34,958 nucleotides of DNA from a virus. Position numbers and translations under genes: made by a program. Below the pieces are notes generated by a model, which saw only the letters and a program-made list of their open reading frames with translations, did no database searches and was not told the origin of the DNA. Below are positions 2,171 through 32,849 of the stretch, in pieces. Location of the stretch: the IMG/VR virus record IMGVR_UViG_3300019487_000950, positions 1-34,958 of that record. One strand, 5' to 3'. The first letter of the stretch is position 1; each line of letters begins with the position of its first letter.

Positions 2171-2773
2171 TTATGAGTAGAGCAAGTCTCTGGCCCGCTG
2201 CTGGTTCATTATCTGCTGTAGCATGAGCCAGCTTGAGATATCAGACCCCGCGCTGCCTATCGCCTGCCCGAATGCCTGCCCGACTCCCATACCCGGCACA
2301 GTGCCTTCAGAGTCGGTCACTGAACGCGTATCGAAGCCAATTGGCCGAGAGAAGCCTGTAGACAGCCCTAACGCCTGCATCTGGCGGTCGAGCGCGTCCT
2401 GATAGAGTTTCGATTCGTTCTGCGAGAGCGCGTCGGCGCGGCCTCGCTCCAGTTGCAGCATGTTGAGGTTCGCCTTGCCACTCCCGCCGAATCCGCGCGA
2501 CGCCAGTATGGAGTCGAGACGGTTTTGCTGCTGATTGAAAATATCTCCAATCTCGCGGCGTCCTTCGAGCCTGAGACCCTCGTTGATGGTCGGGTTTTCG
2601 ATCAGCCCCAGCAGAGCCTTGCCGGTCTTCCGAAATAACTTTCTCCCCTTCGGCCCATAGATCGGGGTGTTAGTCGTCGTCGTCTCCGAGTGCGATTTTG
2701 TATTTTGAGAGCGCGGCCTTCCGAGTATTCCGCCGAGTATCGAAGAGCCTAAGCCGATAAGCGGTCCAGCCAT
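2171..2773 (-). CDS. Small Gly/Gln-rich putative internal virion protein
   Basis: The product is 200 aa. The N-terminus is a short hydrophobic Gly-rich stretch (residues 2-18, GSSILGGILG-like) followed by a Thr-rich linker. A helical middle region is rich in Gln, Leu and Arg (about 60-140), and the tail is Gly/Ser-rich before a final Gln-rich helix. This composition, an amphipathic N-terminus with long helices, is common in small ejection or internal virion proteins next to the tail genes of short-tailed phages, but no family was recognised. The ATG at 2773 has AAGG about 8 bases upstream and lies inside the last codons of the acetyltransferase gene. Function is inferred from composition and neighbours. 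Confidence 0.7.
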   Translation of the reverse strand: MAGPLIGLGSSILGGILGRPRSQNTKSHSETTTTNTPIYGPKGRKLFRKTGKALLGLIENPTINEGLRLEGRREIGDIFNQQQNRLDSILASRGFGGSGKANLNMLQLERGRADALSQNESKLYQDALDRQMQALGLSTGFSRPIGFDTRSVTDSEGTVPGMGVGQAFGQAIGSAGSDISSWLMLQQIMNQQRARDLLYS

Positions 2774-3330
2774 ACGTCGCCTTCTTCGTGTGGGGGCTGA
2801 TCAATCTGATGAGGTGAAGAGGCGATGAGGTGAAGAGGTGATGGTTCTCCTGTCCATTCATCTTTCAGTAAACCGAAAATCACGACATCAAGGGGCTGCC
2901 CGTCGCGGCGGGTGTGTCTGCGCAGTAAGCCCTCTTGCTTGCCGCCCAGTTTTTTGATGAGCGAGCGTATTGCGTGGTTATCCGCGAAGGTGGGCATCTG
3001 TATCTTTTCAAAGCCCGCGGCGAAAAGCTTGGCAGCGATCTGGTTGAGCGCGGGTATAGTCGTCCTGTGGCCGTAAAAACTTTTCTTAAACAGGCAGTGC
3101 GCGGCGACGACTATAGGAGAGACCTGCTCGACCCAGACTATGCCGCCGATTTCCTCATCGCGGTAGATGCCCCATGTATATAGATCATCGCTGCGCTCGA
3201 TCTGGTTGAGTAGAAACTCTTCGAGCGTCTGCGGCGAGAAGTCGTCTCTCGTCGCGCGCGGCACAGCGAGCGTCCACTCCCACACATCGGGCAAAGACTC
3301 TAATGGAAAAGGATTTCGAGCTTCGATCAT
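2749..3330 (-). CDS. GNAT-family N-acetyltransferase
   Basis: The product is 193 aa from the ATG at 3330, which has no clear ribosome binding site; an upstream GTG is possible. The layout is that of a GNAT fold: a strand pair around YTWGIYRDEEIGGIVWVEQ, a central strand and turn at the acetyl-CoA site (about residues 80-105, FKKSFYGHRTT), and the helix and strand ending in ADNHAIRSLIKKLGG. That last element matches the GNAT N-x-x-x-x-x-l-x-k-l-G-F/G element. GNAT genes recur among tail genes of short-tailed phages, where their substrate is unknown. The last ~30 residues are encoded partly by a duplicated 16-bp unit and overlap the next gene by 25 bp, so the natural C-terminus may have been shorter. 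The fold call is good; the substrate is unknown. Confidence 0.75.
   Translation of the reverse strand: MIEARNPFPLESLPDVWEWTLAVPRATRDDFSPQTLEEFLLNQIERSDDLYTWGIYRDEEIGGIVWVEQVSPIVVAAHCLFKKSFYGHRTTIPALNQIAAKLFAAGFEKIQMPTFADNHAIRSLIKKLGGKQEGLLRRHTRRDGQPLDVVIFGLLKDEWTGEPSPLHLIASSPHQIDQPPHEEGDVWLDRLSA
2808..2843. repeat. 16-bp tandem repeat, 2.3 copies
   Basis: GATGAGGTGAAGAGG followed by C or T is repeated at 2808-2823 and 2824-2839, with the first four bases (GATG) repeated again. It lies inside the 3' end of the acetyltransferase gene and encodes Pro/His/Ser-rich residues there. It looks like a slippage or micro-repeat insertion rather than part of the enzyme fold. Confidence 0.85.
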
Positions 3331-3436
3331 GGTCAACCAGAAGGGGTCTCTCACGAAAGATGTGGACGGTTCCGATATTATCACCTGGACCGCCGCGACA
3401 GAACACTTTCTGGGAGCGGTGGTCGGTGGTCGGAGT

Positions 3437-3590
3437 AGGGAACAGGTTACAGGTGACAGGTTACAGGCGGGAAATCTCCGGGCCTGTCCCCTGTTCCCTG
3501 TCACCTGTAACCTAGGGAACAGGTTACAGGTGACAGGTTACAGGCGGGAAATCTCCGGGCCTGTCCCCTGTTCCCTGTCACCTGTAACCT
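3437..3590. repeat. Two exact tandem copies of a 77-bp dyad-rich unit
   Basis: Bases 3437-3513 and 3514-3590 are identical. Each unit contains AGGTTACAGGTGACAGG and its exact reverse complement, and GGGAACAGG with its reverse complement, so several alternative hairpins can form. The repeat fills the gap between the LVIVD propeller gene (whose TAG stop uses its last bases) and the acetyltransferase. In RNA from the minus strand it could act as a processing, attenuation or termination element, but there is no U-tract. Nothing in it looks coding. Confidence 0.9.
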
Positions 3591-5418
3591 ATGGTATCTC
3601 GGTCAGGGTCAGGTTTCCGCCGACCACTGTTACCCGCCAGAGCGCGCCGGTTTCATCCCGAATGACGAGCGCCTCGCCGGAGATGTCTCCTACGACGGTA
3701 GCGGAGTTCGCGATCACATCGCCCTTGAGTCGCACATGGCGAGCGCGGATGAGTTCGGCGTCGATCTGCTCTCCGCTCAGGCTGCCCGCGTTGATGTGAT
3801 GGCAGTTGATGCCGCCGAGAGTGTAGCTGCGAAGCATGCATGTGCCTTCGTCCGGCACGTCGGCAAAGAAGATGCGGCTCCGGGTGAAATCCATCCCGCC
3901 CGTCGCGCCGTTTGGAGCTTCAAGGTTGCCCGCGATGCGCAAATCGCTTTCATCCGGCTTGAGCCTGTAGGCTCTCACACGCTCGCCGCTTGTGAAGATC
4001 ATCCCTCCGCTCGCTCCGACGAACTGTTCCGCGCCTCCCTCTCTGGTAGCGATCAACTCCGGGTTCTCTATGTCGTCAATGCTCACCACATAGACGGTCT
4101 CAGCCGCTACGAGGTAGACGATTGAATCGGCGACGATCACATCTTCGGGCGCGGACGGCAACGACAGGCTTGCTACTCCGCTCGGTGCGGTCGGATCCGA
4201 TACATCGAATATCTTGAGCGAAGAGTCCGCATTGTCGGCAACGAAGAGATATCCGCCGAGGGCGAAACAGGATGCGCCGCCCTCGATGTCGCTCGTAGCA
4301 AGGCAGGTCTGAGCGGCATAGATGCGGAAGCTGCTCGAAAAGCCGACGTAGATATACCCCCCTTCTGCATAGATGGCTGGGGTCGGCGTCAGGCCGTAGT
4401 AGCCTCCCTCCTCCTCTACGATCTTGCATACAGTCGGCAGCGACTTGTTGGTGATATTCCATATTTCAAGCTGGGATGCCCCGTCGCCTGCGTTATGCAG
4501 ATAGAGGTTCCCGCCACGAGCGAAGCAGCCTAAAACGGTTCCGATAGAGCCATCTACTTCGGTGATGGATTCGAGGAAAGGCGACGAAGGATTTTGCGCG
4601 TTTACTATAGCGAAAGACTTTGCTCCATTGTCTTCGACAGGAATGTAAAGATAGCCGTTTTCGACCGAGACCTGACCGAGATCAGTGATGGGGTCGGGAA
4701 TGCCGGCTATTTCTGTAACTGCAAGAATGTCGACCCCTGCGCCTAAATCCACATGTCCGAGTTCTGTGATTCCTCCCCCGTCCACACTGTAAATAACTAC
4801 CGTTCCCTGCGATGTTTCGACATTTTGTCCTATCGTATATAGAACGCCGCTGTCAGGATCGACAGCTATATATACGACGGGATGACAGCTTGTATCGACC
4901 AGAGCGTCAGGTGAAGCTCTCCCGGCGCTTCCCCCCTCGGAGGGAAAGCTAGTGAAGTAATGGAATACATCCACATTGTTTCCAGTAAGATCAAAAAAAT
5001 GATGCCACCACTGAATGAACAACGAACCGCGTCCCGCGTCCTGGGCATGCATCGCCAGTTCGGTCAACGTGTTAATCCGGTTTTCGGTGTGGGTATTGAT
5101 CGGGGCGGGAGGCGTTGCGGTCGAATCAACAGAATAGATTACGCAGACGGCGTTGCCGGTCACAGGGTGTTCGTGGGTTTCCATAACGAACAGGAGCGAG
5201 CCGATATTCGACATGCCGAGCGTGGGGTTGAACGAAAGAGCGAGCGAGCCCAGCAGAGACGGGGCCGATTTGTCGGTAATATCAAACTTATGAATCGAGC
5301 CGTTGTTATAGCATAGGTAGTCGCTTTCGTCCGAGACGAAAAACTGACGAACAGGCTCGCCGTCCGGGTCGGGAGTTTCACTGAGCAGCACAGGGTTGCA
5401 ATCAGGACCGCAGGCCAT
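3589..5418 (-). CDS. LVIVD-repeat beta-propeller protein, putative tail fibre or receptor-binding protein
   Basis: The product is 609 aa. From about residue 30 to 510 it is built of repeats of the type GGYLFVAD-SSLKIFDVSDPTAP, ending in strand-rich segments with D-x-S/T-x-P turns. These are LVIVD-type blades expected to fold as one or two beta-propellers. The last ~90 residues (from INCHHINAGS) form a separate strand-rich domain with xGDVIANSATVVGDISG, typical of trimeric fibre ends. It lies in the tail block downstream of the glycosyltransferase and has a paralogue at 6378-7295. The ATG at 5418 has AAGGAG 8 bases upstream. Host recognition is inferred from position and from the exposed propeller form. 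No enzyme motif was seen. Confidence 0.75.
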   Translation of the reverse strand: MACGPDCNPVLLSETPDPDGEPVRQFFVSDESDYLCYNNGSIHKFDITDKSAPSLLGSLALSFNPTLGMSNIGSLLFVMETHEHPVTGNAVCVIYSVDSTATPPAPINTHTENRINTLTELAMHAQDAGRGSLFIQWWHHFFDLTGNNVDVFHYFTSFPSEGGSAGRASPDALVDTSCHPVVYIAVDPDSGVLYTIGQNVETSQGTVVIYSVDGGGITELGHVDLGAGVDILAVTEIAGIPDPITDLGQVSVENGYLYIPVEDNGAKSFAIVNAQNPSSPFLESITEVDGSIGTVLGCFARGGNLYLHNAGDGASQLEIWNITNKSLPTVCKIVEEEGGYYGLTPTPAIYAEGGYIYVGFSSSFRIYAAQTCLATSDIEGGASCFALGGYLFVADNADSSLKIFDVSDPTAPSGVASLSLPSAPEDVIVADSIVYLVAAETVYVVSIDDIENPELIATREGGAEQFVGASGGMIFTSGERVRAYRLKPDESDLRIAGNLEAPNGATGGMDFTRSRIFFADVPDEGTCMLRSYTLGGINCHHINAGSLSGEQIDAELIRARHVRLKGDVIANSATVVGDISGEALVIRDETGALWRVTVVGGNLTLTEIP

Positions 5419-18989: not shown

Positions 18990-19345
18990 TTATAACCCTT
19001 CCTGTATCCGTAGAGCGTGCCTTTGTACTGGGGGGCTTTCGGCTCGAATCTATCGGCGCACCTCTTACAGAGAATTTGCAGCACGCCATCTTTTACATGC
19101 ACGGTCATAGTCGCCGTGGGCTTTCTCTCGACGAGTAGCGCGAAACTCACCCCGCACTCGTTGCAGGCCCGCGGGCCTGAGCGAGACAACCCGCGGAGAT
19201 TTTCATGGTGCTTGTAGTAACAGGCCGTGCATAAATAACCGCGTTTCTCATTCCCGCTCACCATCTCGTTTGCCGGTTTGTGTCGCTGGCAGACGTTGCA
19301 CTTTCTTCTTGCCTGAAGCAGCACGCCGGCGTTTGCTATTACCAT
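18986..19345 (-). CDS. Four-CxxC zinc-finger protein
   Basis: The product is 119 aa with four CxxC pairs: CNVC (about residue 17), CTAC (about 40), CNEC (about 62) and CKRC (about 93). They would build two treble-clef or zinc-ribbon knuckles. Basic residues around the first pair (QARRK) and the end (YKGTLYGYRKGYK) suggest nucleic-acid binding. The ATG at 19345 lies inside the 3' part of the gene at 19248-19526. The first CxxC needs this N-terminus, so a much later start is unlikely. There is no good ribosome binding site; a CTAGTCCCCCGG box lies 11 bases upstream. It probably works with the VRR-NUC nuclease or kinase, by position only. Confidence 0.7.
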   Translation of the reverse strand: MVIANAGVLLQARRKCNVCQRHKPANEMVSGNEKRGYLCTACYYKHHENLRGLSRSGPRACNECGVSFALLVERKPTATMTVHVKDGVLQILCKRCADRFEPKAPQYKGTLYGYRKGYK

Positions 19346-19526
19346 TGCGAGTGTTCCGGGGGACTAGGGACAATATCTCTCGGAACTTGTCGTGCGTTGC
19401 CTGCCCGAACTCGATCACAAGTTCGCGCCCATCGTCGAGGTCGAAGAGGATCGAATAAGATTCTCCCTTTTGACCTTTCTTCGGATGATCTTTCGTTCTC
19501 AGTACGACTGGCTCGGTCGTAAGCAT
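19248..19526 (-). CDS. Small protein with strand-rich N-terminus and basic tail, unknown
   Basis: The product is 92 aa from the ATG at 19526 (weak ribosome binding site). The first 50 residues (TEPVVLRTKDHPKKGQKGES, then YSILFDLDDGRELVIEFG) form an alternating beta pattern, then a helix HDKFREILSLV. The last 40 are very Lys/Arg-rich. The overlap of 98 bp with the zinc-finger gene is unusually long for this phage, so the basic tail may be out-of-frame read-through and the original stop may have been lost. It lies just downstream of the 6 x 15-bp palindrome array. Confidence 0.5.
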   Translation of the reverse strand: MLTTEPVVLRTKDHPKKGQKGESYSILFDLDDGRELVIEFGQATHDKFREILSLVPRNTRNGNSKRRRAASGKKKVQRLPATQTGKRDGERE

Positions 19527-19552
19527 CGTTTCACTTGCTCTGCGGCCCGGCA

Positions 19553-19642
19553 GGGTAGTCCCGACTAGGGTAGTCCCGACTAGGGTAGTCCCGACTAGGG
19601 TAGTCCCGACTAGGGTAGTCCCGACTAGGGTAGTCCCGACTA
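19553..19642. repeat. Six perfect tandem copies of a 15-bp palindromic unit
   Basis: GGGTAGTCCCGACTA is repeated six times without a mismatch. Each copy contains TAGTC-CC-GACTA, an inverted repeat with 5-bp arms. The array fills the gap between two minus-strand genes, and the upstream gene's TAG stop is made by its last copy. An exact single copy is at 383-397 and a partial one at 754-767. It has no spacers and so is not a CRISPR array. It could be a protein-binding array, a REP-like element or slippage product. Confidence 0.95.
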
Positions 19643-19915
19643 TCGCCGCCGACTCGCTCTCATGCGCGCTCTCAACATGCCTTCTTCCTTTTTGTCGAGT
19701 TCGGCGCGTCGTTCTTCAATAAGCCTCTCTCTCGTCTGCACCGCCAGTTTCAGCCCTATATGCAGCCCTCTGAGTGAAGCTGTCTTTTTCTCATTGAGGT
19801 CATGCTCGACAAGTTCCTTCGCCGTGCGCCTCGCCTCTTCCGTGAGGTGATCGATGATTGCCTTATAGCCCGTATGATTTTTCAACTCTTCCAGACTTTC
19901 GATTAGTTCATCCAT
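19640..19915 (-). CDS. Small coiled-coil protein downstream of portal
   Basis: The product is 91 aa from the ATG at 19915, which overlaps the portal TGA (ATGA) and has GGAGG 5 bases upstream. It is almost wholly helical and charged: MDELIESLEELKNHTGYKAI, then an amphipathic helix with TREEARRTAKELVEHDLN-like spacing, then RERLIEERRAELDKKEEG and an Arg-rich end. Short helical proteins right behind the portal gene may assist portal or head assembly. No family was recognised. The TAG stop lies within the repeat array. Confidence 0.65.
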   Translation of the reverse strand: MDELIESLEELKNHTGYKAIIDHLTEEARRTAKELVEHDLNEKKTASLRGLHIGLKLAVQTRERLIEERRAELDKKEEGMLRARMRASRRR

Positions 19916-22029
19916 CAGACCTCCGACTGAGGCGGAATCTGCCATGCCGGTGGAGCCGGTTCTCCGGTCTCTGCTCCCAACCCAAGCGCGTTCGCCAAAG
20001 CATTAGCTTGCGCCTGCGCCTGCTGCTTCTGTTGAAGCGATTCCATATGATCGAGTATGTGCGCGGCCATGACCATCTCCGCTTCTGTGTCGCGCTGATC
20101 GGCGGGCTTCGCCTGCTCTTCAACGAGCCGCTGCTGGTGCGTCTCGATATGCCGCTGATCATCATCCAGCGGGTGAACCGATATCTCTTCGCCCTGAAGC
20201 GCGAGAGTCCATTCATCCGCGGCCTCTATGGGGAGCGGAATCTCCGCGGGCTTGGGCATGAACTTCGACATCCCGGATTTACCTTGGGCCTTGAGATAAT
20301 CGTCGAGGATGAGCCATTGCGCCTGCGGATTCGTCTGCACTATCGGGGCGGTCATAAGCGCCGTGAGCGTCTGCGCCTCGCGCTCGCGTCTCGCCTCCTT
20401 CGAATGCGCGGATGTGGCGAACCTCAGATCGAAGTCGAATCTTGCGCCGCGCTCGCGCTCGGTGAGCTTGCCGAATCCTTCGCTCACATCGAACAGCCCG
20501 CGCGCCTGCTCTTCGGTCACGCGGAAGAATATCTCCGGCGCTGCGTACTGACTATCGATGTTCCAGAGATGTTGAAGCACGAGCCTCAAATCCTCTCTCA
20601 GCGTTCTTGTGTCGAAAGATACACGCACGCTGCCCTCTTCGAGTAGCGCGATCTGCCCGCGCGCGGTGCGCGGCGCGTTCGGGCGATCTATGGCGCGTCC
20701 GATGTTTTGATCAGTTATGCCCGTCACTCGTTCGGCGTAAGCGAGCAACTCCTGCTGGCGCGCGACAGCGCCGCTGAGGTCGGCTTTCAGATAGATGACA
20801 TTCACATCGTCGCGAGGGTTATCTACGGGAATCATTTTGTGAGGCTCGTAGATCAGCACCTTCGGCGCGAATCCTGTACCCGGACGGTAGAAGATGAGCG
20901 GCCCGACGCTGCGCTCTATGGCCTCCGTCGCCAGATTGGAGTTTACCGATAGCTCCATCTCGATCTCCCCCAACAGTTCAGGGAAAGATGGACACCAGTA
21001 GGAGCCGTCCTTGACCATCGAGGATTCGACGAACGGGCGACGGTTGCGCTGGCGAGGATAAAGCTCGTCCAGCCGCTGGACGCCGATCACCTTGTCGATT
21101 GCCGGCAGATATCGCACGACGAGTTCCGTCTCCCGCATCTCACGGCGGTCGAGGTTATCCTCGCGCGCGTCCATACGGCCTTTAGGCATGCGCCATCTTC
21201 CATACCACTCCCATACTTCCAGAACCTCTCGGCACGTCTGGGAGTTGTCGCGGGCGACTCCCTCGAACTCATCGCGAAGCCGAGTTATCTCATCGGTTTC
21301 CCAGTTGCGGGTCTCCGACGTGCGCGCAGCCCGGACGATCTGCTCCCAGTCTTCCTCTATGCCGGAGTAGAGCTTCCCATCGCCGTCGAGCAAATCCTCC
21401 GGCGTCGCTTTATAGCGGCGAAGCACGAATGAAAAACCATGGATGGTTTTTACGTCCTCGGCGGGAACGACTATATCGTCGGGCCAGAGCGCGCGGAAAT
21501 CCGGCGCGTCGTAATCTACGACTCTGCCCTCGCCCGGAACCTCATACTCTTCGTATCGATAGGGCGCGTATGCTATCGCGCGCCCGAACATGATTTGATA
21601 AAAGAAAAATGTTATTAACTCGATAGCCCACTGCATCGAGACGAAGCAGCGCCACGTCATATAGCGTCCGATCTTATGGACTATTTTCTCGTCGGTCGGA
21701 GCCGTGGGAGTAGCGACAATCTCGGCGTCATCACCTAAAAGCGCGTCGCACACTTTCGCCCACTTCGTGAAGACCTGCCAGACGGTGAGCGGCACGGCGA
21801 AATTCGATGCGCCATGCTCGCCTCCCGGCCCGCCCACGGGATCGCGCCATACTCGCAGATAGCGAAGGAAGCGATTCATGCGCCGCCTGTGGTCGGCAAT
21901 GGCTGATGAGAAATCTTCCGTGATTCGCTGGGTGAGCCGTCTGAGTTCGCGCTCAGACAGTTTTAACTGCCTGCCCTTGGGTCTGGGCAGCTTCCCGGCT
22001 GTCGGGACGGCTGGGTCGATTGCTTGCAT
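19915..22029 (-). CDS. Portal protein
   Basis: The product is 704 aa from ATG 22029 (a GTG one codon earlier is also possible); the ribosome binding site is weak. The architecture is that of large podovirus-type portals: an N-terminal helical region with HRRRMNRFLRYLRVWRDP, then GASNFAVPLTVWQVFTKWAK (the wing). A stretch from about 170 to 290 contains WPDDIVVPAEDV. ELYPRQRNRRPFVESSMVKDG is followed by the stem-crown region with FRVTEEQARGLFDVS and a long Gln-rich C-terminal helix (HMESLQQKQQAQAQANALA). It forms the dodecameric vertex ring through which the terminase packages DNA. Terminase genes are directly upstream. Confidence 0.88.
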   Translation of the reverse strand: MQAIDPAVPTAGKLPRPKGRQLKLSERELRRLTQRITEDFSSAIADHRRRMNRFLRYLRVWRDPVGGPGGEHGASNFAVPLTVWQVFTKWAKVCDALLGDDAEIVATPTAPTDEKIVHKIGRYMTWRCFVSMQWAIELITFFFYQIMFGRAIAYAPYRYEEYEVPGEGRVVDYDAPDFRALWPDDIVVPAEDVKTIHGFSFVLRRYKATPEDLLDGDGKLYSGIEEDWEQIVRAARTSETRNWETDEITRLRDEFEGVARDNSQTCREVLEVWEWYGRWRMPKGRMDAREDNLDRREMRETELVVRYLPAIDKVIGVQRLDELYPRQRNRRPFVESSMVKDGSYWCPSFPELLGEIEMELSVNSNLATEAIERSVGPLIFYRPGTGFAPKVLIYEPHKMIPVDNPRDDVNVIYLKADLSGAVARQQELLAYAERVTGITDQNIGRAIDRPNAPRTARGQIALLEEGSVRVSFDTRTLREDLRLVLQHLWNIDSQYAAPEIFFRVTEEQARGLFDVSEGFGKLTERERGARFDFDLRFATSAHSKEARREREAQTLTALMTAPIVQTNPQAQWLILDDYLKAQGKSGMSKFMPKPAEIPLPIEAADEWTLALQGEEISVHPLDDDQRHIETHQQRLVEEQAKPADQRDTEAEMVMAAHILDHMESLQQKQQAQAQANALANALGLGAETGEPAPPAWQIPPQSEV

Positions 22030-25900: not shown

Positions 25901-27655
25901 TCACCTCCCTGCCGCTTTCGCCCGTCCGGGCTTCTTCTCAGCATCAGGCTTTGTTGAAGATTTGCTACATTTCTTGAGTTCAGCGCGCACCTTCGATGCG
26001 ATCTCGCGCAGATCGAAACCCCATCCCTTAGCGAGCGCGAGGAATCGCTGATTATACTCGTGATAAACATACTCTCCGGCTTTCAGAAAGACGCACTCGA
26101 TGATTAACGCGATCATCTCAGGCACTGTCATCTTAGGCAGCATCTCCCGTATCCGCTTGTCCGCAGCGTCGAAATCCTCCTTCGCCTCTTTCTCGCTTAT
26201 CCACTTCCGGCGAATCGCCGCCTTATCGAGTTTCGAAAACACATCCCCGAAGGAACCGGACGCGATCACCTGTTCGAGGAAGAACGACAGCAGAGACACA
26301 GGGCCGCTCATCGTCACCCATTGCCTTTGCGCCTTCGCCGCGGCGAGACCCGCGATGCGGGCGACGACCGCTTCTCTGACTTTTCGCTCATCTTCAGCCT
26401 TCTTCTGCTCGACTGTCTGCGAGGAGGATTTAGACACCTTCGGAGTCTGCTGTACGCCTGCTTTCTTGAGCAGCTTCGACACCTCTGCCCGTGCCGCGAG
26501 TCGATGCGGCGTGCCATGCATGTCTTCGGCGATCACGGGTTTGACCTGATCCTTGACGATCTGGCCGAACGATCTCCCCTTCGAATCCTCCTGGCATCTT
26601 GCGTCGAGGTCTACGAACTCCTTGCCTGCATTCCAGGTCAGAGTCGTTCCGTTGAAGAGTTCCTTCGCCTGCTTCACGGGCATGATCTCGGCCCCGTCCG
26701 CGCGGTGACGCTCGATGAGCTTCGCGTTATGCGCTGCGAGCTTTCGCTCGTAGCACGACGGCAGAGTACACACGTCCGCACGTGTCCCTTCGAAGAGAGG
26801 ATTATTTCCGGCCATGTGCGGGCAGGCGTCGCAGGCTCCCGCTTCGGGCAGAAGCTCCGCGTCCTTGCGCGAAAACGGCGCGCGCTTGAGTTCGCGCGAA
26901 TAATCCCGTTCTATCAACTGCGCCGACGCCCGGACGGGCAATACTCCGCCGTCGCCCGCCTGCCATGCCGGGGGATGAAGTATCTGACCCGTCGCCTTCT
27001 CGCGCTGGTCGGGATCGGGGATGCGCGCGATCAGTTCCAGATGCGACTTCGTAAGCTTCCCCGACCTGAAGGCCGCGCGCGCCGATTCGGGAACATCCGC
27101 GAGCTTCATCAGCCCGTAGATGTAGCGCGTCTTCTTTCCTACTCTCTCGGCGAGAAGCTCCACCGACCACGATCTGTCCCTGACGAGCCGTCTGTAACCT
27201 TCGCCCTGCTCGATCAGATCAACATCCTCGCGCTGGACGTTCTCGACTATTTGCAAATCCTCGACCTCGATATCTGTAAGCTCGCGCACTATCGCAGGCA
27301 CATGCCCCACCATCGCTATTACCGAGGCTCGCACCCGGCGTTCGCCGACGACGAGTTCGAACCTGTCTCCTGTGGGTCGCACGACGACGGGTGCGAGCAC
27401 CCCGTGCGCTTTGATCGATTCGGCCAGTTCTTCAAGTCCCTCAGACGAGTAAGTCCGTCTCGGATTGGTGGGCGAAAAACCTATCGCCGAGATTTCGATA
27501 AGCTCGATCTCGGATGACTCCAACTGTGGTTTTTGCTTCATACTCTCTTCCTCCTCGAAGCGGCATGGATCGCATCCGTACCGCTGAATGAGTCGCGCCA
27601 GCGACTCCTCTTTCACTACGACCGACCGAGCGCATAACGGGCAGACGATTATCAC
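25901..27655 (-). CDS. ParB-like DNA-binding protein with zinc ribbon
   Basis: The long form is 584 aa from GTG 27655, which overlaps the previous TGA (GTGA). An internal ATG at 27541 with AGGAGG 8 bases upstream is a strong alternative start and would give 546 aa. Residues 5-31 of the long form hold CPLC and CDPC, a small zinc site. ParB core: FSPTNPRR (60-67), GERRVRAS (104-111), ENVQRED (138-144) and a helix-turn-helix around WSVELLAERVGKKTRYIYGL (163-182), followed by KLTKSHLELIARI. A second Cys cluster (CDACPHMAG, then CTLPSCYE) lies near 280-310. The C-terminal 250 residues are helical and Lys-rich. No ParA is nearby, so the protein may act in replication or transcription rather than plasmid partition. 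Confidence 0.8.
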   Translation of the reverse strand: MIIVCPLCARSVVVKEESLARLIQRYGCDPCRFEEEESMKQKPQLESSEIELIEISAIGFSPTNPRRTYSSEGLEELAESIKAHGVLAPVVVRPTGDRFELVVGERRVRASVIAMVGHVPAIVRELTDIEVEDLQIVENVQREDVDLIEQGEGYRRLVRDRSWSVELLAERVGKKTRYIYGLMKLADVPESARAAFRSGKLTKSHLELIARIPDPDQREKATGQILHPPAWQAGDGGVLPVRASAQLIERDYSRELKRAPFSRKDAELLPEAGACDACPHMAGNNPLFEGTRADVCTLPSCYERKLAAHNAKLIERHRADGAEIMPVKQAKELFNGTTLTWNAGKEFVDLDARCQEDSKGRSFGQIVKDQVKPVIAEDMHGTPHRLAARAEVSKLLKKAGVQQTPKVSKSSSQTVEQKKAEDERKVREAVVARIAGLAAAKAQRQWVTMSGPVSLLSFFLEQVIASGSFGDVFSKLDKAAIRRKWISEKEAKEDFDAADKRIREMLPKMTVPEMIALIIECVFLKAGEYVYHEYNQRFLALAKGWGFDLREIASKVRAELKKCSKSSTKPDAEKKPGRAKAAGR

Positions 27656-27897
27656 AGCCTCGCGAACTCGTAAATATTCTTCGCGGGACCCGGCCTGATC
27701 TCGCCCGATGCGATCAGGCGATTCCTGACGATAGACACGCGCTCTACAGGCATTCTCGTCCGGGCAGCCAGCAGATCCTCACTCGCCCAAAAACTGCCGG
27801 TCTCGGTAGCGAGGTCGGCCATCACCATCAACAGCATCCTCTCCTCGCCCTCGGCGTCAGACTCGCGTAAAACTTTTTGAAGGTAAACAACGCTCAT
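27652..27897 (-). CDS. Small winged-helix DNA-binding protein
   Basis: The product is 81 aa from the ATG at 27897 (AAGGAGG 8 bases upstream, overlapping the initiator-like gene's stop as ATGA). ERMLLMVMADLATETGSFWA, SEDLLAARTRMPVERVSIVR and NRLIASGEI give the helix, recognition helix and wing typical of replication-initiator and phage HTH_36-type domains. The wing is followed by RPGPAKNIYEFARL. It resembles the N-terminal domain of the 378-aa protein upstream and may be its partner or a regulator of the iteron region. Confidence 0.7.
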   Translation of the reverse strand: MSVVYLQKVLRESDAEGEERMLLMVMADLATETGSFWASEDLLAARTRMPVERVSIVRNRLIASGEIRPGPAKNIYEFARL

Positions 27898-29030
27898 CTC
27901 TTCCCTCCTTGTGTGGAATTCCATGCGGCGATCTCGCGCCGCACCGCGCGCAGGATAAGACTCCGCTTTTGAGCGAGAGAGCTGCCCGCGACAACTCCCA
28001 TAGTCGAGCGCGCCGCCCGCGCGCATCTGTCGTGAAGTTCACTAAGCGAAACCTGAAAGTAACGAAACGACCGCACAGGCGAGCCTGTGCGGTCCCGGAT
28101 TTTTTGCATCAGCGAACACACCGCCGCTGATGAAAACTCGAAAGCCGCGGCCGCTATCTCGATCTGCTCTCTGTCGGCGCGGATCAGTTGTAGTCCGGTG
28201 AGTCGTTCATACTCAAGCGCGACCACGAGTTTGTCGAAGCCTCCCGGATCGGAGTCGTCGAGCGTCCAGTAAAATTTCTCCGGAGGAGAAAAATTTTCCT
28301 CTGAGGCTGTCTCGTCCGTCTCGTCCGCGCGCGCGCATGACGGATCGACTGACGTTCCTACATGACGTTCTTCATGACGGATAGACATGACGTTCGAAGC
28401 CGCTTCCGCTTTCAAATCAAACAGTTCCGGGGAATTTCGTGCCGTGGATATCACCCTTTCTGTGCCGTGGATATCACCCTTTTCGCTCTGGATATCACCC
28501 TTTTGCACTCCAGATATCACCCTTTCCGTGCTAACTTCAGCATCGAAAAGGGTGTCGTCATGCATCACCCTTTTCGACTCGGAAAGGGTGATGCCGATAT
28601 CACCCTTTCTCCTCTTTCGGGGCTTGGAAAAGGGTGATGCCGATATCACCCTTTCTTGCTCTTCCCGCCGGGTGATTATCGCTTCCGCATGCTGGTTTGC
28701 TGCGAGCGGCGGAAGCCGGAGATGAGGGTGCTTTTCCAAAATTTCACGTATGGCTTCTCTGTCCAGGCCGCAGGTCACGAAAAAGTAGGTTTTACTTCCT
28801 CTGCCCTGCGCGTGTGGGTGAAGGATGAAGAGTTGCCCCGCTTCGACCGATTCCTTGAGCAGAGCTTGCACTCTCCGTTTCGATTTGTGTGTCTTTCGCA
28901 TCAGGTCTTTAAGTCCCGGCCATCCCAGGCCATCGTCATCACATCGGTCGGCCAGGGCAAGCAGTAATATCCTGCGTGAGTCCGGCCCGAAAGAATGTTC
29001 CCAAACGCGACTCGATGTTTTTACGCTCAC
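27894..29030 (-). CDS. Replication initiator-like protein with N-terminal winged helix (lambda O-type role)
   Basis: The product is 378 aa from GTG 29030 with AGGTAAGAGG upstream. The frame stays open to 29060, but the GTG is better placed after the stop of the gene upstream. Residues about 10-75 form a helix-turn-helix (SRRILLLALADRCDDDGLGW, KDLMRKTHKSKRRVQALLKE). The middle (about 125-195) is encoded by an iteron array and reads as repeats of KGDI and ERVIS, clearly unstructured. The C-terminal third (EKFYWTLDDSDPGGFDKLVV, then FEFSSAAVCSLMQKI) is helical and resembles the replication/DnaA-like C-terminal parts of phage O proteins. DNA initiation is inferred from the HTH plus an origin within the gene. 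It is the best candidate for a phage initiator. Confidence 0.7.
   Translation of the reverse strand: MSVKTSSRVWEHSFGPDSRRILLLALADRCDDDGLGWPGLKDLMRKTHKSKRRVQALLKESVEAGQLFILHPHAQGRGSKTYFFVTCGLDREAIREILEKHPHLRLPPLAANQHAEAIITRREEQERVISASPFSKPRKRRKGDIGITLSESKRVMHDDTLFDAEVSTERVISGVQKGDIQSEKGDIHGTERVISTARNSPELFDLKAEAASNVMSIRHEERHVGTSVDPSCARADETDETASEENFSPPEKFYWTLDDSDPGGFDKLVVALEYERLTGLQLIRADREQIEIAAAAFEFSSAAVCSLMQKIRDRTGSPVRSFRYFQVSLSELHDRCARAARSTMGVVAGSSLAQKRSLILRAVRREIAAWNSTQGGKR
28447..28655. repeat. Iteron array / putative replication origin inside the initiator gene
   Basis: At least ten copies of TCACCCTTT with the fuller consensus GATATCACCCTTTTC occur here. Direct copies are at 28447-28460, 28470-28484, 28491-28505 and 28513-28527. 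Then come inverted pairs at 28545-28554/28563-28575, 28582-28592/28596-28609 and 28627-28638/28642-28655. A degenerate copy follows at 28670-28680. The DNA unit is read in more than one codon frame by the gene (KGDI and ERVIS), so DNA rather than protein is conserved. Iterons inside an initiator gene are known from lambda-like replication origins. Confidence 0.85.
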
Positions 29031-29041
29031 CCTCTTACCTG

Positions 29042-29470
29042 TTAGTTGACGCGCGTGCAATTCCCGGTGTGATGATCCAGTTCGCGCTCTATAGCGGCGC
29101 GGTCTTCTTCGTCACTGCGCCCAATAGTGGTCTGGGTGAACCTCACCACTTCGCCGCAGTGACGGCACTCGAACGAGCGTACATGTTCGTCAAAGATAGC
29201 AAACCATCCCTCCGGCGCAATCGCATCGAAGATCGCCATACATGCTCCCCTCTCGTCACCGGCGGCGAGTCGCTCGACGGTGAGCGTCGCCGTGATCGCC
29301 CTTTGCGTCATGTGGAATAGCGCCGCCACTTCCGATTTGTTAGGCTCGTGTCCGTGTAAAAGGTACTTGCTGTAGTGAGTGAAGAACGTGCCAGCTACCT
29401 CGAAAAAATGTGCTGCCGTTTGATGCGTTCGGCTCCTGGAGCCGGTTTCAACCGTGTCGTCTTCGATCAT
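29042..29470 (-). CDS. Small protein with C-terminal zinc site, unknown function
   Basis: The product is 142 aa from the ATG at 29470 (GGAGGGAGC upstream). The N-terminal half is helical (HFFEVAGTFFTHYSKYLLHG, then SEVAALFHMTQRAITATLTV). The C-terminal part has FECRHCGEVV and, 30 residues later, HHTGNC, giving CxxC and HxxxxC zinc ligands. It lies immediately before the replication initiator-like gene and after the GFHVGH-type zinc protein. No family was recognised; a replication accessory role is a guess from position. Confidence 0.65.
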   Translation of the reverse strand: MIEDDTVETGSRSRTHQTAAHFFEVAGTFFTHYSKYLLHGHEPNKSEVAALFHMTQRAITATLTVERLAAGDERGACMAIFDAIAPEGWFAIFDEHVRSFECRHCGEVVRFTQTTIGRSDEEDRAAIERELDHHTGNCTRVN

Positions 29471-29484
29471 GCTCCCTCCATTTG

Positions 29485-29521
29485 TGTCCTACGTGAAAGC
29501 CGGTTTATGTCCTACGTGAAA
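29485..29521. repeat. Imperfect 23-bp tandem duplication at the end of the zinc protein gene
   Basis: TGTCCTACGTGAAA occurs at 29485-29498 and again at 29508-29521 within 23-bp units matching at 19 positions. Because 23 is not a multiple of three, the second copy is read in another frame and supplies the TAG stop. The C-terminus of the gene has therefore probably been re-made. Confidence 0.75.
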
Positions 29522-29704
29522 ACCGCCACATCGCTCATGGCGATAGACGTGCAGGTCGGACTCGCCTCTTTCGAGCAGTGACTGCATGGCTCTGACCGCA
29601 TCGGAGCGGAACCTGAAACCGCGCTTTCGACCACAGCGATAGCGATAAAAATTCGAGCGCCGCTTCCGCCCCTGGAATGCTTGCTTCGTCAGACTCACGC
29701 TCAT
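29489..29704 (-). CDS. Small basic zinc-binding protein of the GFHVGH type
   Basis: The product is 71 aa from the ATG at 29704 with AAGGAGG 8 bases upstream. It is basic (GRKRRSNFYRYRCGRKRGF), then a helix, then HVYRHERCGGFHVGHKPAF, giving C, C-x-G-F-H and H ligands. Many phages and some bacteria carry a ~70-aa protein with this Y-x-C ... CGGFHxGH layout, whose function is unknown. The stop was created by a 23-bp duplication (see 29485-29521). Its ATG overlaps the stop of the 40-aa membrane gene (ATGA). Confidence 0.75.
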   Translation of the reverse strand: MSVSLTKQAFQGRKRRSNFYRYRCGRKRGFRFRSDAVRAMQSLLERGESDLHVYRHERCGGFHVGHKPAFT

Positions 29705-29823
29705 CTGAACGCCTCCTTCAGGTATCCAATAATCGCGATGATCCCCTCGCCGACAATCAGCAGGCATACGAGCGCGAGCAGAACGAGCATGAAAGCGAGC
29801 GCGTCCATCCGGTTTCGTTTCAT
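29701..29823 (-). CDS. 40-aa single-span membrane protein
   Basis: ATG 29823 follows GGGAGGAAGG and overlaps the TGA of the gene upstream (ATGA). The frame ends with TGA overlapping the ATG of the zinc protein gene. Residues 8-27 (ALAFMLVLLALVCLLIVGEG) and following form a single membrane helix flanked by basic residues at the N-terminus (MKRNRMD) and a short KEAFR tail. Such tiny membrane proteins in early phage operons may be inhibitors of host functions or lysis regulators. The AAGGAGG site of the next gene lies in its last codons. Confidence 0.75.
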   Translation of the reverse strand: MKRNRMDALAFMLVLLALVCLLIVGEGIIAIIGYLKEAFR

Positions 29824-30934: not shown

Positions 30935-30947
30935 CTGAAAAACTCCC

Positions 30948-30999
30948 GATGTTGTTCGATGTTGTTCAACGACATCGAACAACATTATACAGCAACATT
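30948..30999. promoter_or_regulatory. Operator region: GATGTTGTTC half-sites
   Basis: Two direct half-sites GATGTTGTTC at 30948-30957 and 30958-30967 face an inverted GAACAACATT at 30977-30986. ATGTTGTTCGATGT (30949-30962) and ACATCGAACAACAT (30972-30985) are a perfect 14-bp dyad. A weaker inverted half-site is at 30992-30999. The dyad overlaps the -10 box and the start site of the leftward promoter, so binding would block it. RHH dimers are the likely ligands. Confidence 0.75.
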
Positions 31000-31011
31000 G
31001 AACCTTGTCAA
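30984..31011 (-). promoter_or_regulatory. Consensus sigma70 promoter, leftward early operon
   Basis: On the minus strand: TTGACA (31011-31006), 16-base spacer, TATAAT (30989-30984), a full match to both hexamers. The predicted start near 30977 lies within the operator dyad. It drives the RHH gene and, through coupled genes without obvious terminators, the leftward block to the replication genes. Confidence 0.8.
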
Positions 31012-31064: not shown

Positions 31065-31661
31065 ATGGCTAAAGTTAAAAACAACAATCAGGCTAAAAGC
31101 ATCGGCGTGAGGGTTACAGCAGACGAGCGCAAGCACCTCGAAGAGCTTATTTCTCGTTTGCAAGTACGACATCCATACTTGGATCAATCGAAGTTAATCA
31201 AAGAACTACTAGGGCTGTCTGATAGCGGTGTTGTCGCCAGCGAAGGCGTCTTTGGAGCAGACGAAAAGACCTTCACATTCCAAATGCACCCGGTGATGCG
31301 CAAAATGATAGAAGATTTCGCCGAGGCAGATGACAGGAGCTTTAACTATCTCTTCAACCAGATTCTTTGGTCTGGTCTTTTTAGCTGCCAGCATGACGAG
31401 GATCATTCATGGATGATGACCATGCGTGAAATTGAGGAATATATAGACCGGTTATTGACCGAGGCTAAAGAACAAGAAAAGGGTGAAGCACCTCTCTTGT
31501 TACCAGAAACTGTTAGTAACGGACACGCGACAACTGAGCAGAACTACTTGATGTCAACGGGCAGCGAGAAGCCTTCCCGTAAGAAGCCGCCTGCCACTGT
31601 AATAAAAGACTTGGCCGACGCGCGGAAAGATTTCGAGGAGAGAAGGAAGAAAAGGAAATAA
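31065..31661 (+). CDS. Putative phage regulator with two RHH-like segments
   Basis: The product is 198 aa from the ATG at 31065 (AAGGAG 4 bases upstream; GTG one codon earlier). The N-terminal segment KSIGVRVTADERKHLEELIS resembles the RHH strand and first helix, with DQSKLIKELLGL as a second helix. A second segment TFTFQMHPVMRKMIEDFAEA and RSFNYLFNQILWSGL repeats the strand-helix-helix order. The rest is a helical acidic stretch and a basic, disordered end. It is transcribed away from the RHH repressor across shared control DNA, and an ImmA-type protease follows directly. It is the best candidate for the maintenance repressor that the protease destroys. The fold call is moderate; the role is inferred. 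Confidence 0.6.
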   Translation: MAKVKNNNQAKSIGVRVTADERKHLEELISRLQVRHPYLDQSKLIKELLGLSDSGVVASEGVFGADEKTFTFQMHPVMRKMIEDFAEADDRSFNYLFNQILWSGLFSCQHDEDHSWMMTMREIEEYIDRLLTEAKEQEKGEAPLLLPETVSNGHATTEQNYLMSTGSEKPSRKKPPATVIKDLADARKDFEERRKKRK

Positions 31662-31708: not shown

Positions 31709-32161
31709 ATGGTTTCTGTTGGTTCTCAGTTGATCGATAGATTCTCGCGACTGGTTCCCGGCTTCAATCGCCGGTCGCTCGCGTTGGATGACCTTTATGG
31801 TTTGTGCGACATTCACAATATCGATGTCGTTCACCTTCCCTTGCGACGTGTCCACGGGATCGCGTTTGAAGAGGATAGCTATCGATGTATGTACATTAAC
31901 CGGCTGCTCCGCATCCCGTTTCAAATCATCGCCGGATTTCATGAGTTTTGCCATTTCGACTACCACACGGTCGATTCGCGCGTCTGCCTGTCAATGGGAG
32001 GACTTGCGAATCTGTCGAAGCGCGAACGTCAGGCTCAGGCGGTCGGCGTTGTCGCGCTAATGCCTGCCCCTTTAATCGTTGATATGACCGTCGATGACCT
32101 CATGCGAGAGTTCGAGGTCTCGCGGCAGATCGCGGAGTTTCGCGCTTCGCTGTGTTTGTAG
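31709..32161 (+). CDS. ImmA/IrrE-family metallo-endopeptidase
   Basis: The product is 150 aa from the ATG at 31709. Residues 78-82 are HEFCH, the HExxH zinc motif within IAGFHEFCHFDYH. E106 in KRERQAQAVGVVALMP is the third ligand, in the position and context (E-x-x-A ... ALMP) typical of ImmA/IrrE proteins. The N-terminal 70 residues form the helix-strand cap that ends with VHGIAFEEDSYRCMYIN. In ICEBs1 and related phages ImmA cleaves the repressor to allow induction. Here it is paired with an RHH-like rather than a Cro/CI-type regulator. It has no HTH of its own. Confidence 0.85.
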   Translation: MVSVGSQLIDRFSRLVPGFNRRSLALDDLYGLCDIHNIDVVHLPLRRVHGIAFEEDSYRCMYINRLLRIPFQIIAGFHEFCHFDYHTVDSRVCLSMGGLANLSKRERQAQAVGVVALMPAPLIVDMTVDDLMREFEVSRQIAEFRASLCL

Positions 32162-32174
32162 GGGGTACTATTGT

Positions 32175-32849
32175 ATGAAGCGGATATTGACTTGTCTTGT
32201 TGCTTTGATCTTCGCGTCGTCTTTAGTAATCGCTCAGTCCAAGTCTCCGGTTAAAAAACCGAACAAGAGGAAGACTATAACTGTTTCAGCCGACGAGCTA
32301 GAGCCGGTCGAACCAAATGGTAAAAAGAACGAATTGAAAAACGGACAGCAACGGCAAGGGATGTATTCCCTCAAAGACCTTGACCCACCTGAGATTCAAG
32401 ACGAACTTGATGCGGCAGTTTCAGAATTTATCGATGAGCGCAGTCATGGACATTGGAAGTTTATTACTGCCGATCCTGATATGAATTATTTCTGGGACTC
32501 TGACCGATTTACTATCGAGACGAATGGCAACGCCAAAGCTTGGATCAAGACCGGGTTGAAAGATTCTAGCCCGTTTGGTGCTGCAAAATACGTTCACTCC
32601 AGAAAGAAAGAGGCGTTGAGTACTAAGGGTTTTGAAAAGTTTTCCCACTCGATGAACCTACTCGAATTTGATTGCAAGAGGAGACAGATGAGAACTCTGG
32701 TCCAGATCAGCTATGACACCGATGGCTATGCGATTTCCAGCTATGAAAATCCAACTGCACCTTGGTCATCTGTAATCCCGGAATCAACCGGCGAGGATAT
32801 GCTGACGCGAGTTTGCAAACACGTCGCATTCAAACGGTCGAAGAAATAA
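32175..32849 (+). CDS. Secreted surface-adhesin-E-like protein (cargo gene)
   Basis: The product is 224 aa from the ATG at 32175. Residues 1-22 (MKRILTCLVALIFASSLVIA) form a signal peptide with an AxA-type cleavage site; there is no lipobox. After a Lys-rich linker comes a domain with HWKFITADPDMNYFWDSDRF, WIKTGLKDSS, LLEFDCKRRQMRTLVQISYD and a final ES-x-x-E-x-x-L-x-x-VCKHV. This is the surface-adhesin-E-like pattern with two conserved Cys. Such proteins are exported in many Gram-negative bacteria; their role is not settled. It is not needed for phage growth, so lysogenic-conversion cargo is likely. The base composition is more AT-rich than the head genes. Confidence 0.75.
   Translation: MKRILTCLVALIFASSLVIAQSKSPVKKPNKRKTITVSADELEPVEPNGKKNELKNGQQRQGMYSLKDLDPPEIQDELDAAVSEFIDERSHGHWKFITADPDMNYFWDSDRFTIETNGNAKAWIKTGLKDSSPFGAAKYVHSRKKEALSTKGFEKFSHSMNLLEFDCKRRQMRTLVQISYDTDGYAISSYENPTAPWSSVIPESTGEDMLTRVCKHVAFKRSKK

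Follow-up and report, generated by a model that had tools for sequence, protein, structure and literature searches.

We propose that the virus DNA analysed here, a stretch of 34,958 nucleotides that is called the window in this report, carries a replication origin of the lambda type inside the gene for its own initiator, and that the iterons in this gene would be bound by that initiator. Judged from the sequence, this is very probably the correct reading because the gene product matches a family of replication initiators, the repeats are constrained at the DNA level, and the same design recurs in relatives, with distant ones, lambda O among them, carrying arrays in the same place. On these grounds the in-gene iteron origin claimed in the initial annotation is retained, but its further proposal that the array defines a separate class is not. 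The coordinates of the features are given in Table 1.

Table 1. Features of the proposed origin, the initiator gene, and their surroundings (window positions)
Feature	Position	Strand	Description
Replication initiator gene	27894..29030	-	378 aa with the GTG at 29030 as start; E 3.4e-13 to 0.003 against PHROG replication-initiation profiles
N-terminal helix-turn-helix / winged-helix region	28731..29030 (approximate)	-	profile matches
Iteron array, proposed replication origin	28447..28655	.	ten copies of AAAGGGTG(A) on gene strand, consensus AAAGGGTGATATC
Direct cluster, four GATATCACCCTTT units	28447..28525	+	starts 28451+, 28474+, 28495+, 28517+; spacing 23, 21, 22 bp
Inverted pair 1	28547..28573	.	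27 bp, AAAGGGTGTCGTCATGCATCACCCTTT; 28547-/28565+; mismatch in left half
Inverted pair 2	28583..28608	.	26 bp, AAAGGGTGATGCCGATATCACCCTTT; 28583-/28600+
Inverted pair 3	28629..28654	.	26 bp, same sequence as pair 2; 28629-/28646+
Second repeat set, five CGTCA (gene strand)	28338..28392	-	start-to-start 13, 12, 13, 12 bp; perhaps part of origin
Least stable 30 bp of initiator gene, weak candidate unwinding site	28268..28297	.	nearest-neighbour profile, lowest 0.6% of window
Small second HTH_36 / O-like protein gene	27652..27897	-	likely ATG start overlaps initiator stop codon (ATGA)
Candidate early leftward promoter	30984..31011	-	TTGACA-16-TATAAT; consensus match only; reads toward initiator

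The initiator gene and its iterons

The initiator ORF is intact and the length of 378 aa given in the initial annotation fits the GTG start, while an alternative TTG start at 29060 would give 388 aa. Its best profile matches (E 3.4e-13, 2.7e-8, and 7.2e-8) are to PHROG families named 'replication initiation protein' and 'O-like', and matches to PHROGs 1032, 6643, 8540, and 391 place it in the O-like / HTH_36 replication-initiation family. These matches fall in the N-terminal part of the protein. The Pfam HTH_36 match scored 19.2 bits, which is under the curated cut-off of 25 bits, and in a profile search of solved structures the best match was a chromosome replication initiation protein (2vn2, E 9e-4), the others being generic winged helices. 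Assignment of the winged helix rests on the profile matches because single-sequence AlphaFold models of the whole initiator and of its N-terminal part were too poor to confirm this fold or to be used in structure searches. The ORF had no Pfam match to plasmid initiators of the Rep_3, TrfA, or RepE type at E up to 0.1. No close relative of the initiator was found in the viral contigs, phages, and genome contigs searched. Relatives of the terminase were absent from the viral contigs, and only distant ones were found in phages. A perfect 12-bp inverted repeat, GACCGCACAGGC/GCCTGTGCGGTC, is also found within the gene's 3' part, at 28069-28094, and resembles a terminator when read on the plus strand.

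Located 400-600 bp within the initiator gene, the array is the densest non-tandem repeat cluster of the 35 kb window. It had been described as ten or more copies in about 210 bp, four direct and then three inverted pairs, and we counted ten in that order, namely, nine exact copies of TCACCCTTT between 28451 and 28654 and a single-mismatch copy, ACACCCTTT, at 28547. The only other exact TCACCCTTT in the window is at 31478 on the minus strand. When one mismatch was allowed the window had 18 matches to TCACCCTTT against 5.3 expected, a number that none of 100 shuffles reached, and all six occurrences of GATATCACCCTTT are inside the array. Read on the gene strand, the units AAAGGGTGAT have AAAGGGTG(A) in common and in six of the ten copies the unit continues with TATC, the remaining spacer varying from copy to copy. 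Repeats elsewhere in the window that differ in kind from the array are a perfect 15-bp tandem repeat, AGGGTAGTCCCGACT, in six copies at 19552-19642 between the minus-strand ORFs 19248-19526 and 19640-19945, and a 77-bp sequence, perfectly duplicated and containing inverted repeats (AGGTTACAGGTGACAGG), at 3436-3591 where ORFs 2749-3504 and 3589-5418 meet. TGTCCTACGTGAAARCCG occurs twice in direct orientation at 29481-29525, with a spacing of 23 bp, where ORF 29489-29767 ends and upstream of ORF 29042-29470.

The best exact 8-mer in the initiator gene has ten copies compared to a maximum of three in 100 Markov shuffles. A 9-mer with one mismatch allowed likewise has ten copies compared to a maximum of six in 60 synonymous-codon shuffles of the gene, a permutation that retains the protein and its codon usage. 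In one orientation the units are translated as ERVIS (three times), KGDI (three times), and KRVM (once), and in the opposite orientation as DTLF, ITLS, and SPFS. Since several reading frames and both strands are represented among the copies and their number is above that of every synonymous shuffle, the array is conserved as DNA and not as a peptide, which bears out what had been deduced earlier from the KGDI and ERVIS copies.

Other readings of the array

Two other functions for the array were weighed, both of them improbable. One is that it is a parS-like centromere for the phage's own ParB-like protein and segregates a plasmid-like prophage. In the gene order that follows the initiator, the small HTH_36 protein is succeeded by a ParB-like protein with N-terminal and HTH domains that is encoded about 0.8 kb downstream in the same direction, and plasmid centromeres typically contain clustered repeats. 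Against this, the phage encodes a tyrosine integrase, which suggests integration, and a partner ParA was not identified among the scanned ORFs. In the two phages whose ParB is nearest, the 14-17 kb that were read contain no exact array unit, and similar arrays are found within lambda O and other initiator genes. The chromosomal parS consensus had no match even with up to four mismatches allowed.

The other function, which we consider just as improbable as the centromere, is that the repeats are operators through which the initiator or another phage regulator represses the operon, and not an origin. The palindromic pairs do look like sites for a repressor dimer, and the presumed GTG start is overlapped by a unit with one mismatch. 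However, the array is hundreds of base pairs inside the gene and not at a promoter, the candidate early promoter has separate short repeats of its own, and the family that the protein matches is one of replication initiators.

Direct pairs of ATCACCCTTT in viral contigs (51 loci) are mostly on one strand, spaced in multiples of three, and largely collagen-like, and a scan for inverted pairs gave 37 loci, all of them isolated hairpins with no array among them. That the array is a protein-level repeat akin to these KGD collagen repeats, which share ATCACCCTTT, or a product of neutral expansion is hardly credible because it occupies both strands and several frames, its copies exceed the synonymous shuffles, and its spacers have diverged between copies as those of a fresh expansion would not.

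Elements around the array and a proposed mechanism

A second repeat set, five copies of CGTCA, sits between the array and the low-stability stretch, and it is the new element here. This run is unique in the window and none of 20 window shuffles has such a run, although the strength of this result is hard to state because the search rule was fixed after the repeats had been noticed. No run of the CGTCA type was seen in the 24 other initiator genes surveyed below. The alternation of 12 and 13 bp shifts the reading frame and therefore this set, too, is probably a DNA feature. A strong AT-rich unwinding element adjoining the array was not found; the least stable stretch is modest and about 150 bp off. 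The GC skew turns at 31.0 kb (minimum at 31,004) and not at the array, but since this is where transcription diverges the skew is uninformative about the array.

The candidate early promoter is a perfect match to the sigma-70 type. Short operator-like TGTTGTTCGA repeats (about 30950-30985) are found at it with a ribbon-helix-helix gene alongside, and this region (30947-31011) is a candidate lysogeny switch. Near the integrase gene, 32094-32849 encodes a protein that begins in a signal-like manner and matches Pfam Adhesin_E (4e-11), and this gene is perhaps expressed from the prophage.

If the array is the origin, the early leftward transcript would give the 378-aa protein with its N-terminal winged helix, and this initiator would bind the ten AAAGGGTGATATC half-sites midway in its own gene. 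Initiator molecules would be aligned on one face of the DNA by the four half-sites that are about two helical turns apart, and one dimer would be held on each of the three palindromic pairs. The resulting complex may bend the DNA and open it nearby, and the C-terminal part of the initiator would then recruit the host helicase or its loader. Recruitment from the host is proposed because neither a helicase nor a primase was recognised among the ORFs scanned. A lambda P gene was also not recognised. In iteron plasmids one half-site serves both in tandem monomer sites that initiate replication and in palindromic dimer sites that limit it. It is conceivable, but rather unlikely, that the origin here is a composite in which the half-site has both of these roles and the CGTCA repeats (one every 12.5 bp) form a second element, for example for single-strand capture or as sites for the small HTH protein.

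The probable origin is placed at base resolution on a bacterial virus without a close sequenced relative, and binding or plasmid experiments have a well-defined target in it. The initiator family should also be useful for studying the joint change of a DNA-binding domain and its sites.

Arrays in other initiator genes and in known systems

We surveyed 24 other initiator genes, O-like or retrieved by PHROG profiles, some of them from phages and the others from prophages in the genomes of a single phylum. Significant in-gene arrays, with copies above all 60 synonymous shuffles, were found in 13 of the 24 and copies in both orientations in 12 of these 13. These counts are rough: the genes were not sampled at random, orientations were scored with one mismatch permitted, and lambda O itself goes undetected in the test. 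About half of the 24 genes gave no significant array. Nearly all of the arrays are in the linker that follows the winged helix and the sequence of the unit differs from gene to gene. In the prophage initiator genes L112, L154, and L164 the arrays are made of inverted pairs, L190 has a tandem run with flanking inverted copies, and L109 and L151 have lambda-like 22-bp dyads. When L112 and L105 were used as queries against the viral contigs there were no matches, and eight DNA-binding regions, once aligned, proved too divergent for use in scanning. Rough as they are, the counts suffice to rule against a separate class marked by the mix of direct and inverted copies: both orientations are the rule in these arrays, L112, L154, L164, and L190 are similar, and the lambda iterons are themselves inverted repeats. 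The survey suggests instead that in-gene arrays of mixed orientation are common in this initiator family and that the sequence of the unit is specific to each phage.

The arrays of L112, L154, L164, and L190 resemble the one described here in being inside the gene and in having inverted pairs or a tandem run with flanking inverted copies. They differ in that their units are unrelated and the half-sites of their pairs are 10-14 bp apart, start to start, compared to 17-18 bp here. Iteron plasmids (F, R6K, P1, and RK2) have a winged-helix Rep protein, tandem sites about 22 bp apart, and a half-site that occurs as direct and inverted copies. The phage shares with them the winged-helix initiator, the tandem spacing, and the half-site in both orientations, but its origin is inside the gene and its initiator was not matched to a plasmid Rep family.

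Lambda O, gene 18 of P22, and gene 18 of phage L each have different iterons inside the coding region, those of phage L being six iterons of an 11-bp unit (PMC8022706). The initiator gene of the window likewise has distinct repeats of its own, while their sequence and number differ from those of P22 and phage L, and the helicase gene 12 present in the replication region of these two phages has no recognised counterpart here.

In lambda the origin occupies the middle of O and adjoins an AT-rich block, and each iteron is a 19-bp inverted repeat that is bound by O dimers (PMC7466680, PMC5043065). The iteron sequence is another one, and where lambda has four imperfect 19-bp inverted repeats and a 40-bp AT-rich block, the phage has four half-sites and three pairs of 26-27 bp, with neither a clear AT-rich block nor a recognised lambda P gene. 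On the other hand, the four annotated iterons of lambda O are spaced 20, 24, and 23 bp compared to 23, 21, and 22 bp in the array, and in both cases the repeats are in mid-gene after the DNA-binding region with a direct run at 20-24 bp. Iterons in the linker of the coding sequence after the DNA-binding domain, at about this spacing, are among the traits of the lambda type, as are an AT-rich stretch for unwinding next to them and a helicase or loader gene adjoining the initiator, in whose place the phage has the small HTH_36 protein and then ParB. Early transcription crosses the origin from PR in lambda and would do so here from the putative consensus promoter. The in-gene arrangement is already well known from lambda and its relatives, and the array is a further example of it.
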